A stretch of DNA of 42,294 nucleotides from a virus: positions 1 through 42,294 of the IMG/VR virus record IMGVR_UViG_3300004804_000012, one strand, 5' to 3'. Below the pieces are notes generated by a model. That model was not told the origin of the DNA and searched no databases. It saw nothing but the letters and a program-made list of their open reading frames with translations. Below, one piece after another: positions 6,937 through 42,294 of this stretch. Position 1 is the stretch's first letter. Every line of letters starts with the position of its first letter. The position numbers were made by a program, and so were the translations under genes.

Positions 6937-7152
6937 ATGGCTGTTTACGACGCGTATGTCCAAGGCAAGTTCTACAAGACGATCGAAGCGCCCTACACGC
7001 ATAACGCGCTCACCCTCGTCACGCTCGACATTCAGGACAACCTCGTGCCTGACTATGACGAATCCAAGCCCGCACAGATCGCACTTCGGCACTCAAAGCC
7101 AACTTCAGCTCCCGTGCCTAAAACCATCGTTACTACAGTTTCAGATGCGTGA
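6937..7152 (+). CDS. Hypothetical protein, 71 aa
   Basis: ATG at 6937, with AGGAG at 6924-6928. A small beta-rich protein (VYDAYVQGKFYKTIEAPYTHNALTLVTLDIQD split over strands) with a Pro/Ser/Thr-rich tail ending IVTTVSDA. No membrane segment or catalytic motif. It is isolated between a terminator and the large gene at 7236. Not recognised. Confidence 0.65.
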   Translation: MAVYDAYVQGKFYKTIEAPYTHNALTLVTLDIQDNLVPDYDESKPAQIALRHSKPTSAPVPKTIVTTVSDA

Positions 7153-7235
7153 CATGTAGAGTACGGCATTGTCTTTTGCGCAGGCTATCTGCCAAAATAC
7201 AGCTGTTCTGTGGCGTACATAGCAAGGATGCTTCC

Positions 7236-13714: not shown

Positions 13715-13765
13715 TGGGCGGCATTGGGTGTTCTATCCATTTCCGCTCACTGGGGGCTTTTGCTC

Positions 13766-15590: not shown

Positions 15591-17456
15591 ATGCCCATTG
15601 TCGAGATCAATGAGAACGAGTGCGTGTACATGCGCGACGGCGTTGTGTGCCGCGGCAATATTGATTCCCACGTCGCAGCTGGTCACTGGATCAGCGCTAA
15701 TCCTGTTAGGGCTTTGCCGCTTGTCACGTTGACCGTGGAAGTCAGCAATATGCAGGCGCCGCGTCGGACCACCGAGTTAGAGTACCAGCGCCAGCGTGTA
15801 GAGGAAGTTCAAAGGCTGGTGGCATCGGGGTTGGTGAGCGCTGATGCATTAGCCGCGAACAGGAATGGAGACATCTTTGCTCCGTCTGTTAGAACGGCGG
15901 CACAGAGCACTACAGCATTGCCAGCAGGCTGGGGGATATCAAACACGCCGCGGCAACAGGCTAATTCGTTCGAAGATGCTTGGGCAGTTGCATCGCGCGA
16001 CGGCTCAAACGCGTCTATTGAGGCTGACAGGCCAGAACCCGCTGAGGTGTCGCTCCAGCCTGGTCAGAACGTCAGCGCGGCGGTGAATGAGATGCTGGCT
16101 GAGGCCAATGAAGACGCCTTAGCTGCTCTTCAAGATTCCTTGTCGCAGCCCGAAGCTAACAACGCAGCAACGGTAGGGTTAGGGCCAGCTGATTTTCGAG
16201 TTGGCGCGCTTGGCCGGGCGTGGCTTGTGTCCCACTTCGTTTCTGCCGCTGTTCGCCTAAGCACCGTAACGACGCCGCTAAATGTACTGAATATGTGCAA
16301 CGATAACGTGCGACAGGCGCTGGAAGCATCGGCTAATTTAGTCCCGCAGATGTCCGAGCGTTGGCTGCGCGTGGCGGGGTATCGAAGCCGCGCCGATTTT
16401 CCGCCTGCCGAAACTGCCGCGGCCACCAATGACACGATCTATTTTGCACGCGACACGCGAACGCTGTATTGGTTTGGGCCAGCCGATGGTTTTTGGCGCG
16501 GCCTACCGATTTACGTTCCGTTTCAGCTTCGGGTGTACGAACGACCGACTACCCGCGCGTTCCGAATTCAGCACATTCCAGCGCGCGACGACTCGCCCGC
16601 AACAGCGCAACTTAATGATCGCGTTGATCGTGCGATGTCGCGGGTAGACTTCCTCGCCCTTCGCCGTCCCCCTGCTGATTTACAGGGCGTTGTGACTTTT
16701 GCGAGCAGGGCTGTCTTTACGCCGTATGCAGAGCTTAACAATGACGCACGTGATCGCTGGCTTCTTTTTGCTCGTGATACAGGCGCGTTGTACCGCCCGT
16801 GTCGTGTGACTGGCACGTATGAACAGATTGCGTCTGCTGGAATCGAGGCGGCGAGAGAACTGGACGCTTTTACGCTTCCGGCGGGCATGACGATTCCAAC
16901 CCGCGCGGTGCAGGGCGACCCTGTGTCTGTGTTGCTGCCGCGAATTCCGCGCGGGCGCACGTGGCAAATTAATCACGTCGGAGACTTCGACAACACTGGC
17001 GGCATGGCGGAGCTGGCTTTTAACAGGCAGGTCGACGCGGTAATGGCGCCGGTGACAGAAGCCGAGCTACCCGAGAACTTCCGCGGCGTCGTGACGTATG
17101 CCCACAGAGACGATTTTCCAGTTCGCGAAACGCTGGCCGATGCCGACACGCGGCTGTTCTACTTTTCGCGGTCTGAGGGCGATTTGTATCGCGTGACGCC
17201 GTTCAGGTCAGGCTTTCAGTACACGCGTATTGCCTCGTCGGTGGCGCCTCCCACCGCGGCGAGCGTAACGTCGTCGGGCGGGTTGCAGATGGTCAGTTCC
17301 TGGGGGCACGTCCCCGGCTCTTGGGCCGACTCGCGGCCGATACTGGCTAACACTTGGCCCGGCGGCCGTGCCCCCTCTCCCCCGCCGCCGCAGCCAGTTC
17401 ACACGCCGGTTCCCATCTCAGACGACCGGCCCCGGCGGCTAATGCTGAATGACTAG
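15591..17456 (+). CDS. Repeat-containing structural (tail or baseplate-like) protein, 621 aa
   Basis: Starts at ATG 15591. Three related modules are visible: YRSRADFPPAETAA..IYFARDTRTLYWF (about residue 260), VVTFASRAVFTPYAE..LLFARDTGALYR (about 360) and VVTYAHRDDFPVRET..LFYFSRSEGDLYR (about 500). Each has a strand, an xxFP turn, a D/N-rich loop and a [LI]x[FY][AS]RxxxxLYR strand. Such short beta repeats are typical of phage fibre or decoration proteins (family knowledge, not a match). The N-terminal 250 residues are Ala/Gln/Asn-rich. The C-terminus is a long Pro stretch followed by DDRPRRLMLND, a variant of the RRRLILD tag. Confidence 0.6.
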   Translation: MPIVEINENECVYMRDGVVCRGNIDSHVAAGHWISANPVRALPLVTLTVEVSNMQAPRRTTELEYQRQRVEEVQRLVASGLVSADALAANRNGDIFAPSVRTAAQSTTALPAGWGISNTPRQQANSFEDAWAVASRDGSNASIEADRPEPAEVSLQPGQNVSAAVNEMLAEANEDALAALQDSLSQPEANNAATVGLGPADFRVGALGRAWLVSHFVSAAVRLSTVTTPLNVLNMCNDNVRQALEASANLVPQMSERWLRVAGYRSRADFPPAETAAATNDTIYFARDTRTLYWFGPADGFWRGLPIYVPFQLRVYERPTTRAFRIQHIPARDDSPATAQLNDRVDRAMSRVDFLALRRPPADLQGVVTFASRAVFTPYAELNNDARDRWLLFARDTGALYRPCRVTGTYEQIASAGIEAARELDAFTLPAGMTIPTRAVQGDPVSVLLPRIPRGRTWQINHVGDFDNTGGMAELAFNRQVDAVMAPVTEAELPENFRGVVTYAHRDDFPVRETLADADTRLFYFSRSEGDLYRVTPFRSGFQYTRIASSVAPPTAASVTSSGGLQMVSSWGHVPGSWADSRPILANTWPGGRAPSPPPPQPVHTPVPISDDRPRRLMLND

Positions 17457-23775: not shown

Positions 23776-23805
23776 TGCTCGTTAAGCCGTCGCAAGGAGG
23801 TGACG

Positions 23806-24336
23806 ATGTACGAAGTTGCCTATGTCGCGCTGGCCTGGCTGGCGTCGGACCTTGTGACGGGATTTGTGCACTGGGTAGAAGACCGATACGGAAATCCCGC
23901 GTGGCCGATCGTTGGCAAGCACGTCATTGCGCCAAACATCCGGCATCATGCAGACCCGCGGGCGTTTCTTGTCGGCGGTTTCTTTGAGCGGAACTGGACG
24001 ACATTGGTGCCAGCACTGACGATTGCTGCTGGATTTGCCTGTGTTGGCTGGTACTGGTTCGCTCTGGTGGCGGGGTTTTCGGCGTTTGCGAACGAAGTGC
24101 ACGCGTGGAGTCACCAGAAGTGCAGCCGCGGTATCCGTGGTTTGCAGCTGCTGGGGCTGCTGTGTTCTCAGGAAGACCACGCGCGGCACCATGAACGCCC
24201 GTTTGACTGCTATTACTGCGTCATGACGGGCTATCTGAATCCAGTTCTGTCCTTCATTCGGTTTTGGCCTGGCCTGGAGATGTTGCTCGGCTATCCGACT
24301 GGCATCTGGCCGCGCAAAGAAAGAGAGCACGCATGA
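23806..24336 (+). CDS. CarF/TMEM189-type membrane lipid desaturase, 176 aa
   Basis: Matches the pattern of the lipid-desaturase family that includes plasmanylethanolamine desaturase (CarF, TMEM189/PEDS1) and plant FAD4. Histidine motifs are in order: H22-W-x-E-D26, N44-x-x-H47-H48, N96-E-x-H99-x-W-S-H103, and H125-x-x-H128-H129, followed by YYCVMTGYLN. These eight histidines are the diiron ligands expected for O2-dependent desaturation. Hydrophobic segments (3-20, 66-95, 113-120, 144-165) make it an integral membrane enzyme. Slightly short for the family. ATG 23806 has a perfect AAGGAGG. The likely substrate is an ether or acyl chain of host or virion phospholipid; which one cannot be told from sequence. 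Confidence 0.88.
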   Translation: MYEVAYVALAWLASDLVTGFVHWVEDRYGNPAWPIVGKHVIAPNIRHHADPRAFLVGGFFERNWTTLVPALTIAAGFACVGWYWFALVAGFSAFANEVHAWSHQKCSRGIRGLQLLGLLCSQEDHARHHERPFDCYYCVMTGYLNPVLSFIRFWPGLEMLLGYPTGIWPRKEREHA

Positions 24337-26274: not shown

Positions 26275-26469
26275 ATGGCCGTATTACGGGAGAGTCGCAT
26301 GGAAAGCGGCCTGCTGTTGCGTGTCCTAACCGCGCGACCGGGTTTGTACCTGCGGAGTCAGCGGGGGCTGGCTTGCACCTCATCAGACAGCCGAGGTGCC
26401 GGGATGCGCGCGGAGATTGATATCTTTGCGCGCTTAACGCTGGTTGCTGGGTTTTCCACGGTTGTCTGA
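26275..26469 (+). CDS. Doubtful small ORF, 64 aa
   Basis: ATG 26275 begins MAVLRESRMESGLLLRVLTA; ATG 26299 is an alternative, closer to a weak GAGAG. The amino-acid sequence is Arg/Ser/Leu-rich without clear structure, and the end contains EIDIFARL, encoded by a GATATC motif. The 302-nt interval 26267-26568 has no other coding candidate. It may instead be a non-coding leader for the ferritin-like gene. Confidence 0.25.
   Translation: MAVLRESRMESGLLLRVLTARPGLYLRSQRGLACTSSDSRGAGMRAEIDIFARLTLVAGFSTVV
26416..26427. repeat. GATATC palindrome copy 13
   Basis: ATTGATATCTTT followed by GCGCGC, in a poorly coding stretch. The same extended sequence (ATTGATATCTTTGCGCGC) recurs at 36835 inside the GT25 gene. 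Confidence 0.65.
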
Positions 26470-26568
26470 GCCTTCCTTCGCCCTTACGCAACACGAGCAC
26501 AAGCAGGAACACGAGCGGTCCTGCTGCCAGCGCCTAGCCCGCCCGATTCACCTTAACCAAGAGGCTGT

Positions 26569-27102
26569 ATGAACCGCACGGACGCCATTCACACGTTGGC
26601 CCGCGACCTGCAGAACGAGTACAGCCATCTGTTGTTCTACACGCGGCAGGCCAGCATTGTCGGGGGCATGCACGCCGCTGAGTACCGCGAGTTCTTCGAA
26701 AAGGCCGCGGCCAGCGAGCTGCTGCACGTGCTGGCGTTTCAGGACCGTATTCTCGGCCTGGCGCCCGAAATTCGGCTGGGCGACCATCCTCTGGCCGTCG
26801 ATCTGCCGCGTTATGCTGCACTGCGCGGATTGACGCCGTTCTTTCATCCTCACGAGGCGCTGGACCACGCGATTCAGCTTGAGACCGACGTCGCGCGGAA
26901 CTACACGCACACGATCCGGTCGCTGGACACCACGAGCTACGACGCGTTTCCCGAGGCGACGTACCTCAAGATCTTCTACGAAGAGCAGCTCAAGGACTCG
27001 TACGAAGACTGCGAGCGCATGCGCCGCCTGCGGGCGAATTTCTGGGAGCAGCCGTGCAATCGCAGCTGGCGGGACTGGACGCTGAAGTCTGCTGACGAAT
27101 GA
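26569..27102 (+). CDS. Ferritin-like diiron protein, 177 aa
   Basis: Four-helix pattern of the ferritin-like superfamily (Dps/bacterioferritin/rubrerythrin group). Candidate metal ligands are E17 (LQNEYSH), E50-x-x-H53 (ASELLHVLAF), E105 (LETDVARNY) and E138/E139 (FYEEQLKDSYED). The final His of the canonical second ExxH is absent, so iron oxidation is not assured. The long, Pro-rich connection between helices 2 and 3 (residues 62-96) fits the superfamily. ATG 26569 has AAGAGG upstream. Phage ferritin-like proteins are unusual; protection of DNA or iron withholding are possible roles. Confidence 0.7.
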   Translation: MNRTDAIHTLARDLQNEYSHLLFYTRQASIVGGMHAAEYREFFEKAAASELLHVLAFQDRILGLAPEIRLGDHPLAVDLPRYAALRGLTPFFHPHEALDHAIQLETDVARNYTHTIRSLDTTSYDAFPEATYLKIFYEEQLKDSYEDCERMRRLRANFWEQPCNRSWRDWTLKSADE

Positions 27103-27129
27103 CCAAAACTCAAACTCACGGAAAGCTAT

Positions 27130-27726
27130 ATGTCGCAGTATAATCTCGCGCATTTGACGCTCGGCAATGACTACGTGCAGGCCGCAATTCAAGACGATGA
27201 GGCGTTGCTGCTGTTTGCGGCGATAAAGTGCATGCGGTTGCGCACGGTCTTGGAGGTTGGCGCGTTGCACGGCTACTCCGCGCAGAACTTTCTAGCTGCC
27301 GTCGGCCCCAAGGGTAAAGTGATCAGCGTAGACATCAACGCAGTCACGCCGCTCGATGTGAATCACACAACGATTCAAAGCCCTATACAAGACGTCGACC
27401 CCGCGTTGTTGCCCGTGCTTGACCTTGTGTTCTTTGATGCGCATGTCTACGACGAACAGCTTGCTTTTTTTAAGCGGGCGCGAGAACAAGGCAAGATTAC
27501 GCCCAAAACGATCATCGCTCTTCACGACACGGGTCTTTTTCCTGGGCCTGTTGTTCCCGGCTGCAAACAAGTTACCGGCGGCTGGATGCACGAAGCAGTC
27601 GAACGCCGCATGGTGAACTATCTTGTAGAGGCTGGCTATCACGCGTTTTGTGCAAACGACGACGGAGGATCTCCGCCGCGGAAGGGCATTACGCTCATGC
27701 AGCAATTTGCTCGCTTTGAAACGTAA
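27130..27726 (+). CDS. Class I SAM-dependent methyltransferase-like protein, 198 aa
   Basis: The Rossmann signature is clear: TVLEVGALHGYSAQNFLAAVG (motif I, about residues 40-60), KVISVDIN (motif II), LDLVFFDAHVYDEQ (motif IV region) and TIIALHDTGLFPG (post-motif), as in caffeoyl-CoA O-methyltransferase-type or Methyltransf_24 proteins. ATG 27130, with GGAAAGC upstream. It opens the glycan cassette, so methylation of a sugar or of another envelope component is plausible (inference). Confidence 0.8.
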   Translation: MSQYNLAHLTLGNDYVQAAIQDDEALLLFAAIKCMRLRTVLEVGALHGYSAQNFLAAVGPKGKVISVDINAVTPLDVNHTTIQSPIQDVDPALLPVLDLVFFDAHVYDEQLAFFKRAREQGKITPKTIIALHDTGLFPGPVVPGCKQVTGGWMHEAVERRMVNYLVEAGYHAFCANDDGGSPPRKGITLMQQFARFET

Positions 27727-27852
27727 TTAGCGCGAGCTGACAAATTTGCTGCGACCTGTTTCGTGCACACAAAAAGTTTTGAAGCAGCCGTACAACCGCA
27801 AACGGCGGAACCGGTCCATGTGGAGTTGGCGACGAATGACAAAGGAGCTTTT

Positions 27853-28299
27853 GTGGCACACGTCTACACCTGCGGCACGTTCGACCTGTTTCATCCAGGG
27901 CACATTTCGTTTTTGAAGCGCTGCTCTCGGCTGGCGGGCGCTGGCGGCACGCTTACGGTTGGTTTGAACACCGACCAGTTCGTGTTTTGGTACAAAAAGC
28001 AGCGGCCGGTTATGCGGTTTGATGAGCGTTGGGAAATGCTCAAAGAATGCCAGTACGTCACCAAAGTCATTCGCAACGTGGCCGGTGCGGATCTTCGGCC
28101 GTCTATCGCGGCGTGCAGTCCGCGCATAGATACCATAGCGGTCGGCTCAGACTGGGCGTGCAAGGATTACTTCGCCCAGACTGGCCTGAGTGACACGTGG
28201 CTCGACGGCAACAACATCTTGCTGGTGTACCTGCCCTACACGCAAGGCATCTCGACCAGCACGTTGCGCGAGCGAATCCTGGCCGACGAAGCGGAGTAA
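27853..28299 (+). CDS. TagD/RfaE-type cytidylyltransferase, 148 aa
   Basis: Nucleotidyltransferase that couples CTP (or ATP) to a phosphorylated alcohol or sugar, as in glycerol-3-phosphate cytidylyltransferase. GTG 27853 is set by AAAGGAG at 27841-27847. The N-terminus VYTCGTFDLFHPGH carries the HxGH motif (H14-H17), and GISTSTLRER near the C-terminus is the second signature. KKQRPVMRFDERWEML matches the substrate-binding helix. The length is typical for TagD. The product would be an activated donor for the neighbouring transferases. Confidence 0.88.
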   Translation: MAHVYTCGTFDLFHPGHISFLKRCSRLAGAGGTLTVGLNTDQFVFWYKKQRPVMRFDERWEMLKECQYVTKVIRNVAGADLRPSIAACSPRIDTIAVGSDWACKDYFAQTGLSDTWLDGNNILLVYLPYTQGISTSTLRERILADEAE

Positions 28300-28304
28300 A
28301 TCGC

Positions 28305-29840
28305 GTGAAGAAACATGTTGCGTTGCACATCACGGGCTTTTTGCGGAACTACCAGTTCTTTGCGCGCAGTGAGTTCTACAAGCGGCTCACCAGCGAGTTT
28401 GACTGTGACGCGTTTCTTACTGTGTGGGCGGAAGATGGCTACGGCAGCAACGCGACGTTCACGTACACGAACAACTTGCTGTCACCGAGCGACATTCACG
28501 CAGAGTTCGGAAGGCCGCTCGTGTGGCTCTGTCAGCGGGGGTTTTCCGCGCACAAGCCTCGATTCGACTACGTTCCCGCACAAAAGCTCTTGGCGTTAGA
28601 GCCACATGTGCTGGAGAAATACCGGTCGAAGTTCTTCTGCGTGAAGCACATGCCAGTGCACCACTACGACGTGCACTTTCACACCCGGCCGGACGTCGTA
28701 TGGACCCCGGAGCTGGTCGAAGAGTGTTTTACGGCACTGGCCGAGTTTGACGCTGATACCTCGCCGTTGTTCACCAGTACTGACTTGTATCACCGCGAAG
28801 GCTGTTTTGGCGACACGTTCCAGATCGGCTCCGAGGCGCACATGTCGTGGCTGAAAGGCTTCCACGACAAGCTGTACGACCAGGCGTATTTGGCGCTGGA
28901 CATTCCGACGGTGCCAGAGCGCATTCTGGAACACTATGCGAACGAAGCTGGTATTGCGCGTAAACAACTCCCCGGCACAATTGAGCTGAACAGGGCCGTA
29001 TGGAGTCACCACGAAAAAAAACGCCGTGACGGAGAAAACATGCAATACGATATTGCCTATTTTTTGCCAGTGACGTTCACCGGCAAATACATCGAACGTT
29101 TGCGCGCATTTCGCAAATACGGGCTGCTTAATCGACAAAACGTTGCGCTGAAAGTGTATCTACTGTGCGGTCAGGAACCTGTGCCCGCAGAGTTTGCGCC
29201 AGATACTTGGCCGTACCCTGTTGAGTTTGTTTCGACGTCTTTTAACTGGGGCGGCATTAAAAATTACGCGTTTGGGCAATACGTCACGCCAGAAATAGCG
29301 GCCAGTGCGCGATGGTGGTACAAGATCGATGATGACTCTGTAAACGATGTAGCTGGCACCGTGCAGCGGCTTGATGCGGATTACGACTGGACGCAGCCGT
29401 TGTATATTTGTGGCGACTACGGCGCGGGACTTGCTCCGTTATTCGTAAACGCAATCGTGCGCTCAGCTCACAGTCAGCGCATATTGATGGAAAACCAGCG
29501 CGACAAACCGATCCTGCACCACGAACGTGAGTCGTCGTTTTTGTCTGGGCCGTGCATGCGAAAAATTGTGGAAGACAGCGAGTGCCAGCGACTTTTTCAG
29601 TATCTGTGTCAACCTGCAAATGATCACCCGGATTGTTTTGGGGATCAGGGTTGGGCGCTCGCGGCGCGTTTTGTACGCGTGCACCAAGTAGATTGCTTGT
29701 TTACGACTCAGTGGCCAATTGTGTCGAATTTTAGTTTGTTTGGCGGGCGGTTTACGCACATTCACTTTGTTCACCCTGAGTGCGCACAGTGGCCGTTGTT
29801 TTTAGAAATGCTTGACCAGCACAACGTACCGACGGAGTGA
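28305..29840 (+). CDS. Two-domain glycosyltransferase-like protein, 511 aa
   Basis: GTG 28305 starts 5 nt after the cytidylyltransferase stop. The N-terminal half (1-235) contains HTRPDVVWTPELV (about 126-138), a motif of some GT-A-like proteins, and LFTSTDLYHREGCFGDTFQI. The second half starts at the internal ATG 29040 (MQYDIAYFLPVTFTGKYIER) and has YKIDDDSVND at about 339-348, a DxD metal/nucleotide-sugar motif. The layout suggests a fusion of two transferase domains. Both activities are inferred; sugars cannot be named. Confidence 0.7.
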   Translation: MKKHVALHITGFLRNYQFFARSEFYKRLTSEFDCDAFLTVWAEDGYGSNATFTYTNNLLSPSDIHAEFGRPLVWLCQRGFSAHKPRFDYVPAQKLLALEPHVLEKYRSKFFCVKHMPVHHYDVHFHTRPDVVWTPELVEECFTALAEFDADTSPLFTSTDLYHREGCFGDTFQIGSEAHMSWLKGFHDKLYDQAYLALDIPTVPERILEHYANEAGIARKQLPGTIELNRAVWSHHEKKRRDGENMQYDIAYFLPVTFTGKYIERLRAFRKYGLLNRQNVALKVYLLCGQEPVPAEFAPDTWPYPVEFVSTSFNWGGIKNYAFGQYVTPEIAASARWWYKIDDDSVNDVAGTVQRLDADYDWTQPLYICGDYGAGLAPLFVNAIVRSAHSQRILMENQRDKPILHHERESSFLSGPCMRKIVEDSECQRLFQYLCQPANDHPDCFGDQGWALAARFVRVHQVDCLFTTQWPIVSNFSLFGGRFTHIHFVHPECAQWPLFLEMLDQHNVPTE

Positions 29841-31237
29841 GTAACGTGTTGCCTGTGACTGCGCTTCAACAGGTTGTCGTCATTCCCGATGACGCTTTCA
29901 CCCCATACACCGTGCCAAACAATCCGCGGCGGCACAAGTATTTTGAGCTTTACCCAGACCGCGAATACGTTGCGCAGTTGATCATCGCCCCGCATCATCA
30001 TGAAGCGTGGTTAAATGTCCATCTGTTCAAGCTCGCGTTGTTTTGTCGCGCGCACGCCATCAAACTCGTCTCTATCGGCCACGAGAATCAGCTGCCGTTT
30101 TTTGGCATGTTCTCAGACGCAGTGATTCTGCAAGAAGGCCCGCTTGACGATATGTTTGGCTGGTTCTCGGCTTTTTCAACAGACATTACTGGCTTCAACA
30201 TGTTGAGCGGCTGGGCGGACATCTACAAACACGATGAAACGAGCTGGGACGACTTACCAACCGTGATGTTGAGCGGCGAAATTCAAAAGGCAGCTAAATC
30301 TGCGTGGCGCGCCATTTACGCGCACTACAAGGCAGAGCACGTGATTGGCGTGTTTAGCGATTGCAATATTTTTGTCACGCAGAGCGCGCGAAACGCGTTC
30401 AGCGGGTTAGATGCCGCAGGCGAGTTGCCGCGCAACGCACTTTGGTGCGAAATCAAAGCGCGTTTCGGCAAGGCAAATTCGCGACTCAAGAATCTGAATG
30501 TAGCGGGCGTGCCGCTTGTTGGGCTCAACAAGAACATGCAAAAAGAACTGGTGCGTGCGCACGGCTCTGCTTTTATGACAGTGCAGCTTCTGTCATCGCT
30601 GTACAACGATTGTCGTATGGTTTTGGGCGCAGGCAGTTCACATGTGTTTGCCGTAGCGCCAGCTAACATCGCAATGGCGTTAGCGCCTGCTGACCGCTTT
30701 TACACAGCAGAAACCGAACACATTGTTCGAAAGTTCAATCTGCACCGATACGGCACAGTGCCGTACGTGGAGGAAGCAACTTTAACGTGGATGTGCACAG
30801 AAGATGCGCGGCAGTACTCGCCCGCCGCTGATGACGAGCAGATTGCACACTGGCAGCTCGATTATTTTCTGACTGAGCCCGCTATGCGCGCATATCTTGA
30901 TTGCGCTATGGCTATTCCGCCGCGAAAAAATGTCGTCGAGTTGAGCTGGGCCGAATACAAGACGCAGCGAGAACTATTTGCGGTTACAACCAAAAACCGC
31001 TTCCGTTTTCAAAGAGATGGCGGGCAACATCTGTGCGATTTGACGCTGAATCCAGACGGCACATTGACGCCTAAATCCGACAACGAGACGTATTGGAATC
31101 TCGTCGGCACCCAGCTCGCGCTCAAAACGCATTTGGGCCAGGCAAGTACGGTCTTGCGTCCAACTCAACAGCGCGGCAAACTAAGCGGGCCGTTTATCTA
31201 CAACCAGACCATCACGCACGAGCTTGAACAGATCTAA
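29837..31237 (+). CDS. Uncharacterised glycan-cassette protein, 466 aa
   Basis: GTG 29837 overlaps the preceding stop by 4 nt (GTGA). A GT-B-like body is possible: HHHEAWLNVHLFKLALFCRA, VMLSGEIQKA, then SSLYNDCRMVLGAGSSHVFA (a sugar-phosphate-binding type Gly-rich turn). The C-terminal 90 residues (RFQRDGGQHLCDLTLNPDGT to NETYWNLVGTQLALK) look like a small beta lectin-type domain. No DxD motif is found. Placement and coupling tie it to the glycosyltransferases; function unproven. Confidence 0.6.
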   Translation: MSNVLPVTALQQVVVIPDDAFTPYTVPNNPRRHKYFELYPDREYVAQLIIAPHHHEAWLNVHLFKLALFCRAHAIKLVSIGHENQLPFFGMFSDAVILQEGPLDDMFGWFSAFSTDITGFNMLSGWADIYKHDETSWDDLPTVMLSGEIQKAAKSAWRAIYAHYKAEHVIGVFSDCNIFVTQSARNAFSGLDAAGELPRNALWCEIKARFGKANSRLKNLNVAGVPLVGLNKNMQKELVRAHGSAFMTVQLLSSLYNDCRMVLGAGSSHVFAVAPANIAMALAPADRFYTAETEHIVRKFNLHRYGTVPYVEEATLTWMCTEDARQYSPAADDEQIAHWQLDYFLTEPAMRAYLDCAMAIPPRKNVVELSWAEYKTQRELFAVTTKNRFRFQRDGGQHLCDLTLNPDGTLTPKSDNETYWNLVGTQLALKTHLGQASTVLRPTQQRGKLSGPFIYNQTITHELEQI

Positions 31238-31247
31238 CAATCGCGTC

Positions 31248-32234
31248 ATGTCTGAAAAGCCCCGCAAAATCATCTTTCGTAATTTTCAGAGCCCGGGCGA
31301 CCTTGTGATGCTGCTTTACGGCATCACGAGCTTGCATGCGTCACATCCCGGCAAGTATCTCACTGACGTTGTCTGCGGGGTCAAAGATATCTTTGTCGGC
31401 AACCCGCTGATTACGCCGCTCGACCCGATGGCGCTTGACGTCACGCTGCTTGAAGCCGACTACCCGTCTATTCATCGCAGCAACACGCACCCGGTGCGGT
31501 TCGTGGAGTCTTTTGGCGAGGAGATGGCCAAAAAACTGGGCGTACAGATCACGCCAACGCGTTTTCACAGTGTGGTCTACATTACACCCGAAGAGCAAAG
31601 CTGGTATTCAGCTGTGCGGGAGATCATAGGCAAAGACGTTCCGTACTGGGTGTTGAACGCCGGACACAAGCACGACTACACAGCCAAGGCATGGTCGTTC
31701 GCGCGCTATCAAGAACTCGTCGCGCGGTTTCCGAACGTCTGGTTTGTTCAGGTTGGCGCAAAAGAACACGAACACCCGCTGCTTGAAGGTCCAAACTTGA
31801 TCAACATGATTGGCAAGACGGATATCAGGCAGCTCATTCGGTTGGTCTACCATTCGTTTGGCGTGATATCCGGCGTCAGCTTTCCGATGCACTTGGCGTA
31901 CGCCGTGCCGGTGCATCCGAGGTTCAGACGCGCCAGCCGCGCCAATATCACGATCGCAGGGGGCCGCGAACCCGCGCACTGGGAAGAGGGGCCGAATCAT
32001 CAGTATCTGCACACCTGTGGCATGCTTCCGTGCTGTGACATGGGCGGCTGTTGGAAAAGTCGCGTAGTGCCCCTAGGCGATGAAGACGACAAAGACAAGA
32101 ATCTGTGTATGCGTCCGGTCGTTTTGGAGAACGGTCAGTGGATCGGCGAGTGCATGGCGCTCATTACGGTCGATGACGTGGCGAAGCTGATTGAACGGTA
32201 CATGGCCTGCCTGGATTACGCACCCAAGTTTTGA
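31248..32234 (+). CDS. Heptosyltransferase-like (GT9-type) glycosyltransferase, 328 aa
   Basis: GT-B pattern: an N-terminal domain, then WVLNAGHKHDYTAKAW (nucleotide-sugar-binding loop) and FVQVGAKEH, and GKTDIRQLIRLVYHSFGVIS plus GVSFPMHLAYA, the GxxxxxHLA signature of ADP-heptose:LPS heptosyltransferases. A Cys-rich insertion follows (HTCGMLPCCDMGGCW), probably a metal or disulfide site. ATG 31248 has a poor ribosome-binding site; TTG 31224 overlaps the previous gene. The AAAGATATCTTT motif at 31383 encodes KDIF. Confidence 0.75.
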   Translation: MSEKPRKIIFRNFQSPGDLVMLLYGITSLHASHPGKYLTDVVCGVKDIFVGNPLITPLDPMALDVTLLEADYPSIHRSNTHPVRFVESFGEEMAKKLGVQITPTRFHSVVYITPEEQSWYSAVREIIGKDVPYWVLNAGHKHDYTAKAWSFARYQELVARFPNVWFVQVGAKEHEHPLLEGPNLINMIGKTDIRQLIRLVYHSFGVISGVSFPMHLAYAVPVHPRFRRASRANITIAGGREPAHWEEGPNHQYLHTCGMLPCCDMGGCWKSRVVPLGDEDDKDKNLCMRPVVLENGQWIGECMALITVDDVAKLIERYMACLDYAPKF

Positions 32235-32244
32235 AGGAGCATAG

Positions 32245-32781
32245 ATGTTTGACGGCGAACCCAAAAAAGGCTTCAAGTATGCTAATGACCGGCTGTATTT
32301 GACAGAAGCCGTTGAGGCCGCGGCAAAACTGTCGCACGACCCAAGAACGCAGAACGGCGCCATACTTGTCGGATATCCACTCGACATCCGGTACTTGCCT
32401 GTCGTAATCGCCGCGGCCAACTGCTTTCCGCCTGGCATAGCAGTCACACCTGAACGGTTAGATCCGGCGGTCAAGCTCAAATACATGGAGCACGCCGAGC
32501 GTAATGCTATCTATACCGCTGCAAAATTCGGCCAGTCAACAGAAAACGCCACGATGTACTGCCCGTGGTTTGCCTGCGTAGATTGCGCGCGGGCTATCAT
32601 TTGCTCCGGCATTAAGCGCGTGGTTGGTTTGCAGAAGCCGCGCGCCATTACGCCAGAGCGCTGGCGCGCTACGATTGCAGAAGCCGACGAATTGCTCAAA
32701 GAAGCCGGGATTCAGGTCGATCTTTTGGATGTCGAAGTCGGCGTCGAGATTTTGTTCAACGGCGAAAAGGTGACGCTGTGA
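32245..32781 (+). CDS. dCMP deaminase, 178 aa
   Basis: Zinc-dependent deaminase that converts dCMP to dUMP, feeding ThyX. HAERNAIYTAAKFG (H83-A-E85) supplies the zinc ligand and catalytic Glu, and MYCPWFACVDCARAII (C111 and C114) the second zinc knuckle. An N-terminal extension and an extra C-terminal strand fit phage dCMP deaminases. ATG 32245, with AAGGAG at 32233-32238. The gene sits within the glycan cassette, apart from thyX. GTGA overlap with the next gene. Confidence 0.93.
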   Translation: MFDGEPKKGFKYANDRLYLTEAVEAAAKLSHDPRTQNGAILVGYPLDIRYLPVVIAAANCFPPGIAVTPERLDPAVKLKYMEHAERNAIYTAAKFGQSTENATMYCPWFACVDCARAIICSGIKRVVGLQKPRAITPERWRATIAEADELLKEAGIQVDLLDVEVGVEILFNGEKVTL

Positions 32782-33194
32782 CGCCATTTCGCCCCACAAA
32801 CATCGCGTTGGACTTCGATCGCACGTTTACGAGTGACATTCCGTTTTGGCGGACGTTCGTGCTGCACGCCATCGAACGCGGGCACAAGGTCTACTGCATC
32901 ACCGCGCGCCACGAGAACGAAACCAACTGCAAGCAGGTCGAAGAGCTGTTTGGCCCGACTGTGTTTCCGCGGCTGGCTGGGGTGATTTACACCCATCACC
33001 AGTCGAAGCGCGCGATTGCGCAGTTCTGGGACGTTCGCATCGACATCTGGATTGACGACATGCCCGAGGGTGTCGGCAAGCAGTCTAAGCGCGACTTTCA
33101 GACGCACGAAATGCAGCACAAGGTTTATGAAGAGCTGCCCGTATTTCAGCCCGACGTTGTGTGTCCGACGGAAGTCTGGAAACCGGCGCAGTAG
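32778..33194 (+). CDS. HAD-superfamily hydrolase-like protein, 138 aa
   Basis: Start GTG 32778 overlaps the dCMP deaminase stop. IALDFDRTFTSD is HAD motif I (Asp nucleophile and acid), CITAR is motif II, HHQSKRA supplies the conserved Lys of motif III and WIDDMPEGV is motif IV. The protein lacks a cap domain. Likely a phosphatase for a small metabolite or a 5' nucleotide or sugar phosphate. Position beside the deaminase and in the glycan region fits either. Confidence 0.8.
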   Translation: MTPFRPTNIALDFDRTFTSDIPFWRTFVLHAIERGHKVYCITARHENETNCKQVEELFGPTVFPRLAGVIYTHHQSKRAIAQFWDVRIDIWIDDMPEGVGKQSKRDFQTHEMQHKVYEELPVFQPDVVCPTEVWKPAQ

Positions 33195-33226
33195 CTATCA
33201 ACGCACTGCGGGCGGAGCAAATTTTC

Positions 33227-33976
33227 ATGAGACAAACTGCGCAAATAAAAATCGTCATCAACTCAAACGTGCACTATAAAAAACAACTTGCTACGTTAAT
33301 CAGCAGCATGATAGCCGTTGGGTTTTGTCGGTTTGACGCGCTCGTTGTTGTAATCTCGCAGTCTTGTGCGGACGAGCCCCCGCGCAAAATGTCGCTGCAA
33401 GAAATTTTACCGGCGGCCCCTGACGTTGAAATCTGTGTCATCAAAATGATGATGAACAGTTTTGACTACGCGGGGTATCACGCGCTGCACCTCTACAAAA
33501 ATGACCCGTTGGTTGTAGCACCCGCGTACCTGTATCTCATGGACACCTGTACTGTTACGCCAGAGTTCAACAATGCGTATGCAACGTTGCGCGTTGAAAA
33601 AAACGCGGTGCATACTTGCCCGCCGCCGCACTCAAACATTTGCGCGTTTGATGCCGCTGTCGTGACAAATTACGGCGACAATTTTTGTACGCCACTCACA
33701 AAAAACGAGGCCGTATCAGTCGAGTTTGAACAGTCGGTGTTCAAAAACGGCAAAGAGATTGCAGGTATTTTGAACTTCGGCCGGTTTGTAAACAACGGCG
33801 CGCGTATTGGCATGAATAACGTTGACATTTATGACACGGGTCATTTACGTCATCGCGTGCGTTATCCGCAATTTGGTGTGGACAAATGGATATTTATGTT
33901 TAAAACCGGGGACATTACAGGTGCGGTCGTGGATTTAGATATGGCGGCGCACGCTAAACTGTTTTCCGAACATTGA
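33227..33976 (+). CDS. Uncharacterised glycan-cassette protein, 249 aa
   Basis: ATG 33227 (MRQTAQIKIVINSNVHYKKQ). The first strand-helix (QLATLISSMIAVGF) and FDALVVVISQS look like the start of a GT-A fold, as in other cassette members, but no DxD motif is present; DLDMA is near the end. Rich in Asn and aromatic residues. A+T content is higher than in its neighbours (many TTT, AAA and AAT codons), suggesting different ancestry. TAGCTATCA lies just before it (33192). Confidence 0.5.
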   Translation: MRQTAQIKIVINSNVHYKKQLATLISSMIAVGFCRFDALVVVISQSCADEPPRKMSLQEILPAAPDVEICVIKMMMNSFDYAGYHALHLYKNDPLVVAPAYLYLMDTCTVTPEFNNAYATLRVEKNAVHTCPPPHSNICAFDAAVVTNYGDNFCTPLTKNEAVSVEFEQSVFKNGKEIAGILNFGRFVNNGARIGMNNVDIYDTGHLRHRVRYPQFGVDKWIFMFKTGDITGAVVDLDMAAHAKLFSEH

Positions 33977-34002
33977 TTCATACTGAATAGGTAGTCATCG
34001 TC

Positions 34003-35097
34003 ATGGACGACGTTCTCATTGTGGGCAGCGGCATGTTCGGCGCTGTCTTTGCTCGGCAGTGCCTCGACGCTGGCAAGTCTGTGCGCGTGCTGGAGCGCCG
34101 CGATCACGTTGCCGGAAACTGCTACACCAAAAACGTCGACGGCATCGAGCAGCACGTCTACGGGCCGCACATCTTTCACACGAACAGCCCGAAGATCTGG
34201 GACTACGTGCAGCAGTTTGGTCGGTTCAACAGCTTCGTGAACAGGCCCAAGGTCAACTACCACAGCAAGCTGTATTCGTTCCCGATCAATCTGTTTACGC
34301 TCTACCAGCTGTGGAACGTCTCGACGCCGGAAGAAGCTCGCGAGGCCCTGGACAAAGTTCGCGTGCCGATCGCGGAGCCAAAAAACCTGGAAGAGTGGGC
34401 ACTGTCTCAGGTCGGTGAAGAGCTGTATCAGACGTTCATCTACGGCTACACCAAGAAGCAGTGGATGCGCGAGCCCCGTGAGCTGCCAGCGTCGATCATC
34501 AAGCGGCTGCCCATCCGGCTGAACTTCGACGACAACTACTTCACGGATCGGTACCAGGGCATTCCGGAAGCGGGCTACACCGCGCTGCTCGGCAACATGC
34601 TTGTCGGCGCGCGTATCGAGTTGGGCGTGGACTACCTTTTCGCGCGGGATTACTGGGACGCACAGGCTAAGACCGTCGTGTTTACCGGCTGCCTCGATGA
34701 ATTTTACGGCTATCGATACGGCCATCTCGACTACCGAACGCTGCGTTTTGAGACAGTGCGTGAAAACATCGTGGATTATCAGGGCAACGCGGTCATCAAC
34801 TACACCGGCCGTGAACCCTACACCCGCGTCGTTGAACACAAGCATTTCTCGGGCGCGCAGACGCCGCACACGCTTGTCACGCGGGAATATCCTGAAGTGT
34901 GGCAGCCCGGTAGCGTGCCGTACTACCCCGTTAATGATGACAAAAACAGCGCGCTTTATGCGCGGTATGCCGCCGTTGCCCGCCAAGAAACAAAATACAT
35001 TTTTGGTGGAAGACTGGCCGAGTTTAGATACTATGACATGCACCAGGTGATCGGCAGCGCGCTGGCGTCGGCGGCGCATTTTCTCGGAGCTGAATGA
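34003..35097 (+). CDS. glf: UDP-galactopyranose mutase, 364 aa
   Basis: Flavoenzyme converting UDP-galactopyranose to UDP-galactofuranose. The FAD-binding motif GSGMFGA (8-14), RRDHVAGNCYT (about 32-42), YGPHIFHTN, the central GYTKKQWMREP and the C-terminal GGRLAEFRYYDMHQVIGSAL are all typical of bacterial GLF. Length is right (360-390 aa). ATG 34003. The stop overlaps the next start (ATGATG). Galactofuranose occurs in O-antigens and capsules of several bacteria; in this phage it implies synthesis or modification of a Galf-containing glycan. Confidence 0.97.
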   Translation: MDDVLIVGSGMFGAVFARQCLDAGKSVRVLERRDHVAGNCYTKNVDGIEQHVYGPHIFHTNSPKIWDYVQQFGRFNSFVNRPKVNYHSKLYSFPINLFTLYQLWNVSTPEEAREALDKVRVPIAEPKNLEEWALSQVGEELYQTFIYGYTKKQWMREPRELPASIIKRLPIRLNFDDNYFTDRYQGIPEAGYTALLGNMLVGARIELGVDYLFARDYWDAQAKTVVFTGCLDEFYGYRYGHLDYRTLRFETVRENIVDYQGNAVINYTGREPYTRVVEHKHFSGAQTPHTLVTREYPEVWQPGSVPYYPVNDDKNSALYARYAAVARQETKYIFGGRLAEFRYYDMHQVIGSALASAAHFLGAE

Positions 35098-36560
35098 TGG
35101 TCACGTATGATTCAAGCAAGCTGTACGTTTGCGTGACGTACACACCGGAGTTCCAGTCGCTTCTCGACAATCTTTGCACATCGCTGACGCACCCTAACAT
35201 TGAGGTGCACGTCAATCAGGCTGTCTTGCAGTTGCGATATGACGGCTTTCGCAGCCGTGGGTGGTTTGAGTGTCTAAAGCTCAAGCTGCAGTTTTTTTAC
35301 GACTTCTTCTCGCAGCTGCCGGACGGCGCCGTGGTGTGTTCGATCGACGCCGACATCCAGTTTTTTCGGCCTGAGCGGTTGTACGAACTGAAGCAGCAGC
35401 TCGATCGTTCAACGCTGGAGTGCTACGGACAGGCAGAGTATCAAGAACGATGGATCGACCGGCCGAATACTGGTGTAGCCAACGGCGGGTTCTTCATGTT
35501 CAAGAAAAACGCCCGCGTGCTGGAGTGGCTGCAAGCAGTTTTGGCGCAAAACTTCAACCGGCGCTTTTTGGGCGACCAAGAATACCTGAACCACTTCATG
35601 CGGCAGAAGCGCGTGCAGTATCAGTTGCTTCCGCCGCAAGAGTTTTTGCACGGCGGGCCGGTTGTGGCCAATAATCTCGACTTTATTGATCACAAGCGGG
35701 TCGTGATGCACCACGCCACCTATACAAAAACTGTCGAGGAGAAGCAGGCGCAGATGACAAAGCTGCGCGCGATCTGCGGATTTACGCCCGTAAACTGGGC
35801 TGACATGCAGAACACAAACCCGCATGTCGTTTTTTACGGCGACGGGCAGCCTGCTGCCACTTACGCCCCTGACAAGCGTTACGCCCTTGTGCTGGCGCGA
35901 TGCACAGAAGACGTGGCATGGGCCGCGCGGTGGCAAGAAACGCTCGACATATTTGTGTACAGCAAATGTGGCGCGCCCGCGCTGGCATTCGATGCAAATT
36001 GGTTGACGTTGCCCAACGTTGGTCGCGAGGCGCACACATACCTGTCGCACATCATCGACCATTATGACAACCTGCACGAGGTCACCATTTTTCTGCAAGG
36101 AAGAATTGATGACGCGCACGCGTACCCAGCGTCGCAGCTCATGAAGTACATCGATCCCGCCAAGAAAAACGGCTTCAGTGCGTCGCATCTGATGCTGGTT
36201 AAGCCGTCACACTGGAACAATATCAATTTTTTGGCAATACCAAAGTACGCGCCAAAAGTGCGGTCTGGCGAGTTACGTATTAACGCGGCTGGCTTGTTAG
36301 CTTTTGCGAACCAGCATTTTGGCAAGCTGCCGGTGTTGGCCGTGAGCAGCTACACCGGTTGTTTTGCCGCTAGCCGCGAAGCCATCCTGAAGTATCCAAA
36401 GTCGTTCTACGTGCAGCTACGGGATATCTTGAGTGACCATCCTAATTCTGAGGAGGGTCACTTTATGGAGCGGCTGTGGGCGCACATGTTCAGTGGCACC
36501 GCGTACGTGCCGGAACTGCTAGGCATTCCCGAGAACAAACGCGACAAGTTTGTCTACTGA
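35094..36560 (+). CDS. Bifunctional glycosyltransferase-like protein (DxD domain plus DUF3431-like domain), 488 aa
   Basis: ATG 35094 or 35097; overlaps the glf stop. The N-terminal domain has VCSIDADIQFFRPERL (DxD at about 85-87) and NGGFFMFKKNARVLEWL, as in nucleotide-diphospho-sugar transferases of the GT77 type. From about residue 260, ALVLARCTEDVAWAARWQET, LPNVGREAHTYLSHIIDHYD and VTIFLQGRIDD match the DUF3431 pattern found in glycan-associated proteins. The order suggests a gene fusion. It is probably the galactofuranosyl- or other transferase acting with GLF, but the sugar cannot be named. Confidence 0.75.
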   Translation: MMVTYDSSKLYVCVTYTPEFQSLLDNLCTSLTHPNIEVHVNQAVLQLRYDGFRSRGWFECLKLKLQFFYDFFSQLPDGAVVCSIDADIQFFRPERLYELKQQLDRSTLECYGQAEYQERWIDRPNTGVANGGFFMFKKNARVLEWLQAVLAQNFNRRFLGDQEYLNHFMRQKRVQYQLLPPQEFLHGGPVVANNLDFIDHKRVVMHHATYTKTVEEKQAQMTKLRAICGFTPVNWADMQNTNPHVVFYGDGQPAATYAPDKRYALVLARCTEDVAWAARWQETLDIFVYSKCGAPALAFDANWLTLPNVGREAHTYLSHIIDHYDNLHEVTIFLQGRIDDAHAYPASQLMKYIDPAKKNGFSASHLMLVKPSHWNNINFLAIPKYAPKVRSGELRINAAGLLAFANQHFGKLPVLAVSSYTGCFAASREAILKYPKSFYVQLRDILSDHPNSEEGHFMERLWAHMFSGTAYVPELLGIPENKRDKFVY

Positions 36561-36561
36561 C

Positions 36562-37191
36562 ATGCCAATCGACTTTCAACACGTTCCGGCGTTTTGCATC
36601 AATCTCGTCGCGCGGCCAACCCGCTGGGCTCAAACGGAAGCTGAGTTTCAACGGGTACAGTGGCCGATCACGCGCTGGCCTGCCGTCTGGTACGCAAACT
36701 CTCCATCCGCAAACGTTGTCAAAGAGCAGGCAGGCGCGCTTGATAGTCATCGGCAGCTGTGGCAGAAGTGTCTAGACGACAAGCTTGACGTGATGGCGGT
36801 GTTCGAAGACGACGTTGTTTTGCCGTCGAACTTCATTGATATCTTTGCGCGCGTATCGGCTGAGTTACCGGCAGATTGGTCGTTATGGCACCTGCACTCA
36901 TCGCGCGCCAAAACTGCTCCGGCGGGTCAGTATCTTGTGCGCATTCTTTCGTCAATGTGGGGCACGCACGGTTACCTAATCCGGCCCGCAGCCTGCGCCG
37001 AGTTGTTGGCTGTTCCTGGTTACGCCGCCGCTGATTACCGCATGACAAAAACCTACCTAGATGCGGGCGGGCAGCCGCTGGGGACAGCAATGCACTCCGG
37101 CCTGTGTTTTCAGCGCGGCGACGACAGCGACATCCCGACGACGGCGCAGTTGCGCTTTTGGCGAGAACAGCGGCAAAAATACTGCCGTTAA
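36562..37191 (+). CDS. Glycosyltransferase family 25 (LPS-type), 209 aa
   Basis: GT25 signatures: FCINLVARPTRW (about residues 10-21), LDVMAVFEDDVVLP with EDD at 82-84 (acidic metal site) and SMWGTHGYLIRPAACAEL, the sugar-acceptor segment. A bit short but complete. ATG 36562 starts just after the preceding stop. An ATTGATATCTTTGCGCGC sequence (36835-36852) encodes IDIFAR and repeats the extended palindrome at 26416. Last gene of the cassette. Confidence 0.85.
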   Translation: MPIDFQHVPAFCINLVARPTRWAQTEAEFQRVQWPITRWPAVWYANSPSANVVKEQAGALDSHRQLWQKCLDDKLDVMAVFEDDVVLPSNFIDIFARVSAELPADWSLWHLHSSRAKTAPAGQYLVRILSSMWGTHGYLIRPAACAELLAVPGYAAADYRMTKTYLDAGGQPLGTAMHSGLCFQRGDDSDIPTTAQLRFWREQRQKYCR

Positions 37192-37228
37192 CGTGCGCCG
37201 GGCTGTTCGTGCTCTTTGCCAACCCGCT

Positions 37229-37257
37229 TTGCGCCCGCGCACGAAAACGTGATAAAG
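37229..37257 (+). promoter_or_regulatory. Sigma70-like promoter before the lysis-type genes
   Basis: TTGCGC (37229-37234), 17-nt spacer, ATAAAG/TAAAGT (37252-37258). The -35 and spacer agree with those at 18272 and 40984. The transcript would have a leader of about 275 nt. Confidence 0.45.
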
Positions 37258-37537
37258 TATCAAGTGCGTGGCAGTGTCACGCAAAAGCCGCAAGTTGGTC
37301 GTGGTGGCCGATCGGTTAGGTGCTATTTCAGCGGCATGGATGTCGCTGGGGTAGCGGGTTCCGTGGTCAGAGCACGCCGTGAACACGGTTGGAGGCGCGG
37401 TGAATGCCACACGGGGCAGCAATGCCTTTGTAAGTCACCGTGAAGCTGCAGCTTGCTGCAGCCGGACCTGCGGGTAGGGGATCCCAGGAGCTTGCGGTTA
37501 TGCCAGTTGCCGGACTTAAGTGGCGGGAGCCAGCAGC
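37258..37537 (+). other. Long non-coding leader of the holin-like gene
   Basis: No frame with a ribosome-binding site and protein-like composition. Hairpins seen: GCGTG/CACGC (37265-37281), CCGTG/CACGG (37377-37388), and a perfect pair of GCTGCAGC octamers (37445-37452, 37455-37462). It may control expression of the downstream lysis-type genes; alternatively a small Arg/Gly-rich ORF from GTG 37249 exists but looks random. Confidence 0.4.
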
Positions 37538-37876
37538 ATGTTTGCAGAACCGACTCATCCTATCTGGGTGTTTCTCAGCGCTTTTGGCGTTTCTGCGTTC
37601 GCTGGGCTCGCCACCTATTTGCGCTTTTCGCGTAAAATGACCAGGCTTGGTCTTCTGAGCGCGTTGTTAAACGCTGGTTGCCTTGGTCTGGCCATCAGCC
37701 TCATGTGGTACCAGCACTATCGAAAGTCGGAGAACGTCTATGGTCTAATTGGTATCTGCGTCATGGCCGGAATGGGCGGGTCGACAGTTACCGATATTCT
37801 GTGGTCTGTTCTCAGCGGCGCGGGCATTAAAGTCACGATTACCCACGAGCAAGACAGGAACCCCAACAATGAGTGA
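37538..37876 (+). CDS. Holin-like membrane protein (LydA-type), 112 aa
   Basis: ATG 37538, with GGGAG at 37524-37528. Three membrane segments, about residues 9-28, 37-57 and 67-90, a short N-terminus and a charged C-terminal tail (THEQDRNPNNE). The third segment, GICVMAGMGGSTVTDIL, resembles the LydA/superfamily III holin pattern. Holins form inner-membrane holes at lysis onset. Assignment is by topology and pattern; a second candidate lies at 41048. Confidence 0.6.
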   Translation: MFAEPTHPIWVFLSAFGVSAFAGLATYLRFSRKMTRLGLLSALLNAGCLGLAISLMWYQHYRKSENVYGLIGICVMAGMGGSTVTDILWSVLSGAGIKVTITHEQDRNPNNE

Positions 37877-41823: not shown

Positions 41824-41851
41824 CCGCATTCTTCGCAAGGACGCGAACTAT

Positions 41852-42294
41852 ATGGCAAGGATGCCATCAAAACACCAGCATGTACTGCCTACAGGAGAGA
41901 TCCTAAAAAAGCTGTACGGCTTTGGGTATTTTGGCACGAAGACCTGGCAACAGGTCAAAGGGCTCAAGGGCGAAGACCTTGATTGCGCTGTGCGCGAGTA
42001 CCAGCTTTTCCACGGTTTGGACCCCAATGGTGCTGTCGGGCCTGAAACGGCAAGCGTGCTTTCTCGGCGTCGATGCGGGTTGCCTGACTTTAACTTCTCA
42101 GCGGGCGACTCGGTCTGTAAGTGGACGCACAAGACGATCACGTACTTTCCAAGCCTGACACTCCCCGGCGTGTCGTCTGAGCAAGCTGCGCAGGCGTATG
42201 ACATCGCGTTCAGCCAGTGGGCCGCGGTGTGCGACCTGGAGCCGCAGCGTGTCACTGCCGCAAACAAGGCGAACATTCTGGCGCGGTCTGGAAA
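41852..42294 (+). CDS. Matrixin-like metalloprotease with peptidoglycan-binding domain, N-terminal part (truncated by window end)
   Basis: The frame is open from ATG 41852 to the window end; 147 codons are visible. Residues about 10-70 (GEILKKLYGFGYFGTKTWQQ to DLDCAVREYQLFHGLDPNGA) form a PG_binding_1 domain. RRRCGLPDF follows (C75), matching the cysteine switch PRCGxPD of matrix metalloproteinase prodomains. KWTHKTITYFPSLTLPGVSS then resembles the first strand of the MMP catalytic domain, KWxxxxLTYxxxxx. The HExxHxxGxxH site would lie beyond the window. Together with the preceding holin candidate it suggests an envelope-degrading or lysis enzyme kept latent by its Cys. The start is supported by AAGGACG upstream. 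Confidence 0.75.
   Translation, partial: MARMPSKHQHVLPTGEILKKLYGFGYFGTKTWQQVKGLKGEDLDCAVREYQLFHGLDPNGAVGPETASVLSRRRCGLPDFNFSAGDSVCKWTHKTITYFPSLTLPGVSSEQAAQAYDIAFSQWAAVCDLEPQRVTAANKANILARSG

Follow-up and report, generated by a model that had tools for sequence, protein, structure and literature searches.

Bacterial capsule and O-antigen serotype loci share a common plan, in which the flanks are fixed, the sugar genes lying between can be exchanged, and the inner part diverges fast. Mycobacteriophages encode glycosyltransferases of their own, with which capsid or tail proteins are modified and the particle is shielded (Freeman et al., 2023, as cited in PMC12619734), and the moraphages, large phages of aquatic habitats, are described as having several glycosyltransferase orthogroups in their core genome (PMC12619734). 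UDP-galactopyranose mutase (UGM) has been annotated in Agrobacterium phage Atu_ph04 (PMC6630229). Here we analyse a block of glycan genes, among them one for UGM, in the virus record IMGVR_UViG_3300004804_000012; the whole stretch of 42,294 bases is called the window in the following. A sequence-only reading had described the block as a glycan cassette which might coat the virion, modify the host lipopolysaccharide (LPS), or decorate DNA or protein. We find that this cassette is one among several versions of a locus which lies at a fixed site and has a changing content, and we give about even chances to the explanation that it is a variable glycosylation locus for the virion fibres of an undescribed lineage of uncultured jumbo phages.

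The left end of the window cuts a transfer-messenger RNA (tmRNA) and the right end cuts an open reading frame (ORF), and the window is evidently a 42-kb piece of an undescribed jumbo-phage lineage, in which one relative reaches 203.9 kb. A search with the UGM gave a single close relative, G1 (L002), at 94% identity. Searches with the flanking genes gave G2/G3 (203.9 and 86.7 kb) and G4, and searches with the conserved DNA at the edges of the locus gave G5 to G11 together with a more distant set, L188-L202. Where their sequences overlap, the two members of G2/G3, G4/G11, G5/G8 and G6/G9 nearly duplicate each other, and each pair was counted once. The comparison comprises 12 complete loci: eight close ones (the window, G1, G2, G4, G5, G6, G7 and G10) and four distant ones (L189, L193, L197 and L199). 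No match at the DNA level to the right half of the window was found in the collection of named phages, and PHROGs recognises few of the proteins of the 203.9-kb relative. The virus Rctr197k was rejected as a useful relative; its match covers 17% of one flanking protein only.

The order of genes is the same in the eight close loci: PhoH and its neighbours, a conserved noncoding element (el5), the glycan genes, a second conserved element (el3), and then the holin-like gene and what follows it. The four distant loci still have PhoH at their left side and end with el3 at the right. Taken from edge element to edge element the true extent of the locus in the window is about 26365 to 37503. Among the observations named beforehand as speaking against the cassette was that close relatives should lack it and show a clear insertion junction. 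This check did not refute it, as the site is filled in each of the 12 complete loci. Since no locus has an empty site, we rejected the idea that the cassette is a recently inserted island.

The content of the site varies. A GT9 gene is present in 10 of the complete loci and a gene for a small HAD-like protein in 11, and a GT25 gene lies near the right edge in 8 of 8 close lineages; a profile search found no GT25 in the four distant loci. UGM, around which the cassette had been described, is found in just 6 of the 12 and is therefore not its defining gene. Single proteins are also rearranged. The putative glycosyltransferase encoded at 28305 in the window fuses two proteins that are separate in relatives, the N-terminal half standing alone in G1 and the C-terminal half in G2. 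G1 has neither the gene found at 29837 nor the C-terminal half of the 28305 protein, and carries instead a 711-residue fusion of DUF3431, GT9 and methyltransferase. Both genes and domains are thus traded at the site.

Comparison of pairwise protein identities shows that the proteins of the cassette diverge much faster than their neighbours, and that this divergence is specific to the locus. Pairs with 93-97% identity in a flanking protein have only 54-59% in GT25. Between the window and G1 six flanking proteins are 86-94% identical, against 60% for the deaminase and 52% for the methyltransferase, which in G1 has a different position. For G4 and G6 the values are 94% for PhoH and 59% for GT25; for G6 and G10, which also differ in the presence of UGM, they are 97% for the g38572 protein and 54% for GT25. 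The deaminase of the window is closer to that of G7 (69%) than to that of G1, although the flanking proteins place G1 closer, which argues for exchange between lineages.

A changing content might also be expected if metabolic genes had been acquired independently at a tolerant site, each being useful alone and with no shared product. The mixed content, with ferritin-like, deaminase and HAD-like proteins in the window and an actin-like protein of the Volactin family in relatives, would fit such cargo. However, GT9, the HAD-like protein and, in the close relatives, GT25 return in nearly every version, and of the classes that can be recognised in a locus the glycan-related genes always form the largest; random cargo would not give this pattern. 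We therefore regard independent cargo as improbable. The Volactin-family protein is encoded inside the glycan locus of the relatives, at 7031-8062 on the minus strand of L075 (G4; Pfam 7.5e-60), at 9922-10923 in L193, and in G5, G6, L189, L197 and L199; the window and G1 do not have it. Directly to the left of el5 in G4 there is a fusion of GT25 and radical S-adenosylmethionine (SAM) domains (L075 10608-12155, minus strand).

The UGM gene at 34003-35097 is genuine, as had been claimed. Its product scores 373 bits against TIGR00031 (equivalog cut-off 304) over residues 3-359 and matches GLF at 3.8e-74; its alignment with 1I8T, the enzyme of E. coli, runs from end to end (3e-128, over 2-360). 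R170 and R278 of the E. coli enzyme, which we take to be the active-site arginines of UGM, align with R168 and R275 of the window protein, and these are invariant in five members of the lineage. The alignments support that the phage would be able to make UDP-galactofuranose. The proposal that the block builds a galactofuranose-containing glycan thus stands as far as the donor is concerned; the glycan itself is presumed. The best candidate for a galactofuranosyltransferase, by its position, is the fusion of a GT77-like Nucleotid_trans domain and DUF3431 encoded behind UGM at 35094-36560 (PF03407 9e-7 and PF11913 4.8e-19, above the Pfam cut-offs). Its start overlaps the stop of UGM, it adjoins the 3' end of UGM also in G1 and G10, and it is split in L193; it had no match among the named phages. 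In a tree made with a quick method and having long branches, the five UGMs of the lineage form one clade (Shimodaira-Hasegawa-like approximate likelihood ratio test, 98) near enzymes of Planctomycetota and Verrucomicrobiota. This looks like one acquisition, in which case the absence of UGM from G4, G5 and G6 would be due to loss or replacement. The position in the tree reflects the origin of the gene and so is not usable for assigning a host.

ADP-heptose is suggested as another donor made by these phages. HldD, the ADP-heptose epimerase, is found above its curated cut-off in G2, G6 and G12, and G2 also encodes a full-length HldE-like two-domain protein of 505 residues, which scores 212 bits against an equivalog cut-off of 521. 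These genes fit with the presence of a GT9 gene in the locus. The window fragment has neither an HldD nor an HldE-like gene, and heptose would be assumed for it from its relatives. A second GT9 fusion (635 residues, 75-85% identity) lies away from the locus, in a block conserved among G2, G6 and G7.

G4, G6 and G10 carry fibre genes upstream of the locus, with the same strand orientation, and so does G2 if its contig is circularly permuted. Several of them are called tail-fibre or virion structural by PHROGs, down to 7e-126. Glycan genes are interspersed with the fibre genes, a GT9 in G6 and a GalE-like protein in G2; sulfotransferase-like and further transferase-like ORFs among them are our own reading. 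Collagen-like G-x-T repeats occur in G2, G4 and G10, and in one fibre of G2 the last residue is T or S in 28 of the 44 triplets. In bacteria collagen-like G-x-T repeats, e.g., those of BclA from Bacillus, carry O-linked glycans on threonine, and collagen galactosyltransferases are among the GT25 enzymes. For the collagen-like fibres this parallel may serve as a lead, not as a test. In the stretch of the window where relatives have fibre genes there are two proteins (14656-15561 and 15591-17456) with similar C-terminal ends (RRRLILD and RRLMLND) and without family match.

The explanation which we prefer, glycosylation of virion fibres, would work as follows. Cytoplasmic enzymes would make the activated sugars, with UGM turning UDP-galactose of the host into UDP-galactofuranose and ADP-heptose coming from the phage's own HldD and HldE, as seen in relatives. 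Soluble glycosyltransferases (GT9, GT25, GT77/DUF3431 and others) would then attach the sugars, with methylation, to a virion protein, and the acceptor would most likely be among the tail fibres encoded close by, whether collagen-like or not. Exchange of content between relatives would give each phage a different surface glycan, in the way bacteria vary their capsules, and the benefit could be escape from recognition or tuning of adsorption.

The same enzymes could also edit the surface of the host, so that the LPS core or a glycolipid is altered during infection and rival phages, or the binding of the phage's own progeny to debris, are blocked. Enzymes such as GT9 (heptosyltransferase), GT25 and UGM are typical of LPS synthesis, the relatives carry genes for ADP-heptose, and a quick turnover would also suit an arms race over receptors. 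GtrA (PF04138) and a Wzx-type flippase (PF01943) were absent from eight records of the lineage, which are possibly incomplete, while the controls were positive. This disfavours serotype conversion of the temperate style; editing of the core needs no such transporter, though. The linkage seen in relatives is to fibre genes. Taken together we find editing of the host surface unlikely, but of some weight. Among the targets first proposed, a virion protein is favoured, DNA is disfavoured, and LPS-core editing for superinfection exclusion keeps a limited probability.

As for DNA, sugars would be placed on modified bases of the phage as a protection against restriction. The deaminase-like gene in the cassette and ThyX, encoded at 13724 in the window, could be seen in this light, and UGM may serve DNA in other phages, as judged from the gene neighbourhood in Lactobacillus phage ATCCB. 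There UGM adjoins a thymidylate synthase and a beta-glucosyltransferase (L078 6043-9098), a hint that this phage may put galactofuranose on its DNA. However, the ThyA family (PF00303), the usual source of hydroxymethyl pyrimidines, was absent from four records of the lineage including the one of 203.9 kb (control positive, records possibly incomplete), and this disfavours DNA glycosylation. Moreover, the deaminase is missing from most relatives, and known DNA glucosylation requires fewer transferase families than the several found in each locus. We consider this explanation very improbable.

It should be noted that several points weigh against glycosylation of fibres as well. The fibre acceptor is deduced from genes, and the window has no recognised fibre gene. 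GT9, GT25 and UGM are also classic enzymes of LPS and O-antigen synthesis. With six complete loci lacking UGM, galactofuranose cannot be the common purpose, and the deaminase, the ferritin-like protein and the Volactin of the relatives fit no pure glycan role. The family assignments rest on sequence.

All genes named in the sequence-only reading are present where it placed them and on the same (+) strand; three ORFs (32245, 32778 and 33161) had been overlooked and one start had been set too early. The first ORF past el5 (26569-27102) encodes a ferritin-like protein (Pfam Ferritin 3.7e-5, slightly below cut-off), homologues of which sit near the left edge in many relatives. It is followed by a SAM methyltransferase (27130-27726; Methyltransf_24 1.2e-6, above cut-off) and by a nucleotidyltransferase of the CTP_transf_like superfamily (27763-28299; 1.2e-14), the real start of which is maybe about 30 codons further in. 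The solved structures closest to the latter are ethanolamine-phosphate and glycerol-3-phosphate cytidylyltransferases. It misses the curated cut-offs both for TagD (TIGR01518, 59 against 165 bits) and for HldE domain II (49 against 182), and the label TagD-like is kept at the level of the superfamily. The putative two-domain glycosyltransferase (28305-29840) has a DDD motif in its C-terminal half, which is weakly Fringe-like; it starts at 28305 rather than 28197, since the homologue in G1 starts at the matching codon. The next gene (29837-31237) encodes a 466-residue protein with zero matches in Pfam, PHROGs and PDB; among the eight close lineages it is shared only with G2 and G7 (58-64% identity). 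AlphaFold2 models of the 29837 and 28305 products were too poor for use (mean predicted local distance difference test 32 and 36, respectively).

The GT9 protein, heptosyltransferase-like (31224-32234; PF01075 1.5e-4), reaches 21.7 bits against a cut-off of 22, and 22.4 bits with its neighbours in frame; a PDB search gave no match. Then come the overlooked ORFs. They encode a deoxycytidine monophosphate/cytidine deaminase-like protein (32245-32781; PF00383 1.4e-12), the small HAD-like protein (32778-33194; phrog_4256 3.4e-21, phrog_4919 5e-20), where HAD is our reading of a DFDRTFT motif, and a 271-residue protein (33161-33976) seen in the window alone, with no family match in Pfam or PHROGs and no homologue in the lineage. 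Behind UGM and the GT77-DUF3431 fusion lies GT25 (36550-37191; PF01755 1.3e-14, 55 bits against a cut-off of 24; bacterial GT25 structure 8XLZ, 4e-9). Starts are indeed coupled, as 6 of 10 junctions overlap by 4-34 nucleotides and a seventh is separated by 5 nucleotides. Scans for promoters and terminators were no better than chance, so a single transcript is presumed.

The locus ends at el3 (37262-37503, + strand, about 243 nucleotides), directly ahead of the gene for a holin-like membrane protein (37520-37876, + strand; phrog_6384 holin, 1.4e-4 across most of the length), whose position is kept in relatives. The element was noticed because it is better conserved than the surrounding coding DNA, with 81-86% identity to distant relatives. 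Eight sequences give a multibranched fold of 82 pairs with two-sided changes in 18 pairs, against 8.2 in shuffles. A covariance model matched 27 places with E from 1e-31 to 1e-81, and copies are found in two dozen other contigs, e.g., at L193:10943-11188 and L189:3219-3467. For 17 distinct sequences 93.5% of the cells are paired and 44 of the 82 pairs show two-sided change; the shuffles give 24.9 such pairs, 0 of 500 reaching 44, and slid structures give 13-20. This alignment was fitted to its model; an independent fold of the alignment still holds 34 two-sided pairs among 61. The invariant G-U pairs in el3 indicate that the + strand is the RNA strand. Neither el3 nor el5 had a match in Rfam 15 at gathering score, and nothing credible appeared at E<=5 (for el3 a 6-bit chance match only). 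Derivation of el3 from a tRNA, in view of its D-arm-like GGCCGAYYGGUUAGG, was rejected, as the scores against the five tRNAs of the window were at shuffle level. That el3 is a new structured RNA is well supported by this covariation, and it is possibly more novel than the cassette itself. Since it ends a few tens of bases 5' of the holin-like gene it may plausibly act as a leader, and just as well be a free RNA.

At the other edge lies el5 (26365-26545, + strand, 180 nucleotides), which is as well conserved as el3 and has 85-98% nucleotide identity to nine relatives. To the distant ones the identity is 85-88%, whereas their alignable flanks have mostly 65-76%. Its fold has 48 pairs with 95.8% of cells paired and two-sided change in 5 pairs, a number equalled by 34 of 500 shuffles; it may possibly be a structured RNA, with weak covariation. 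That both edges act as recombination anchors would be a guess from their conservation.

Elsewhere in the window, the tmRNA cut by the 5' end of the record is phage-encoded (1-333; RF00023, 104 bits), and there are the five tRNAs. A Lipid_desat protein (23800-24336; Pfam 9.4e-42), which belongs to the Kua/TMEM189/CarF-like plasmanylethanolamine desaturase family and is 96% identical in G1, is a surprising lipid enzyme for a phage. The ORF cut at the right end (41846-42294) has a peptidoglycan-binding domain and a weak matrixin-like domain (Peptidase_M10, 0.024), and is kept in relatives.

One may go further and, with considerable doubt, consider the locus as an exchangeable "glycotype" module, a viral counterpart of the capsule locus, which would use phage-made UDP-galactofuranose and ADP-heptose and would be bounded by two structured RNAs not in Rfam. 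The 3' RNA would be a long leader or a free RNA acting on the holin-like gene, and thereby on the timing of lysis, or on the module, and the edges would be homology anchors for the swapping of genes. If the preferred explanation by fibre glycosylation is right, these phages would vary their own surface sugars as bacteria vary capsules, and this would bear on the ways in which giant phages escape recognition and adjust their attachment. The versions of the locus taken together are a source of uncharacterised glycosyltransferases with natural fusions and splits of domains, including the candidate galactofuranosyltransferase behind UGM, and the function of el3 is open to direct testing.

How does the locus compare with the described systems? 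UGM in phages is already known, with 88 records including phages of Rhizobium, Aeromonas, Streptococcus and Lactobacillus (phrog_9677), and so is the glycosylation of virions by phage genes. The UGMs of named phages belong to the same enzyme family; those of the lineage are less than 60% identical to them, form their own clade and are set inside a glycan locus, unlike two annotated UGM regions of named phages in which UGM has at most one glycosyltransferase neighbour. The likeness to the mycobacteriophages, as these are cited in PMC12619734, lies in the phage-encoded glycosyltransferases; what we have here is a reshuffled multi-gene locus of 6-11 kb with nucleotide-sugar enzymes (UGM, and HldD elsewhere in relatives), known from its genes. 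The moraphages are likewise jumbo phages with sets of glycosyltransferases, a likeness taken from their description only, and the main text of PMC12619734 names neither UGM nor tmRNA. With the capsule and O-antigen loci the layout is the same; the present locus is viral, no Wzx-type or GtrA flippase was found, and its edges are conserved RNA elements, so that the relation is one of analogy and not of membership. What is new is a glycan locus swapped at a fixed site in a lineage outside the collection of named phages, together with the el3 RNA.

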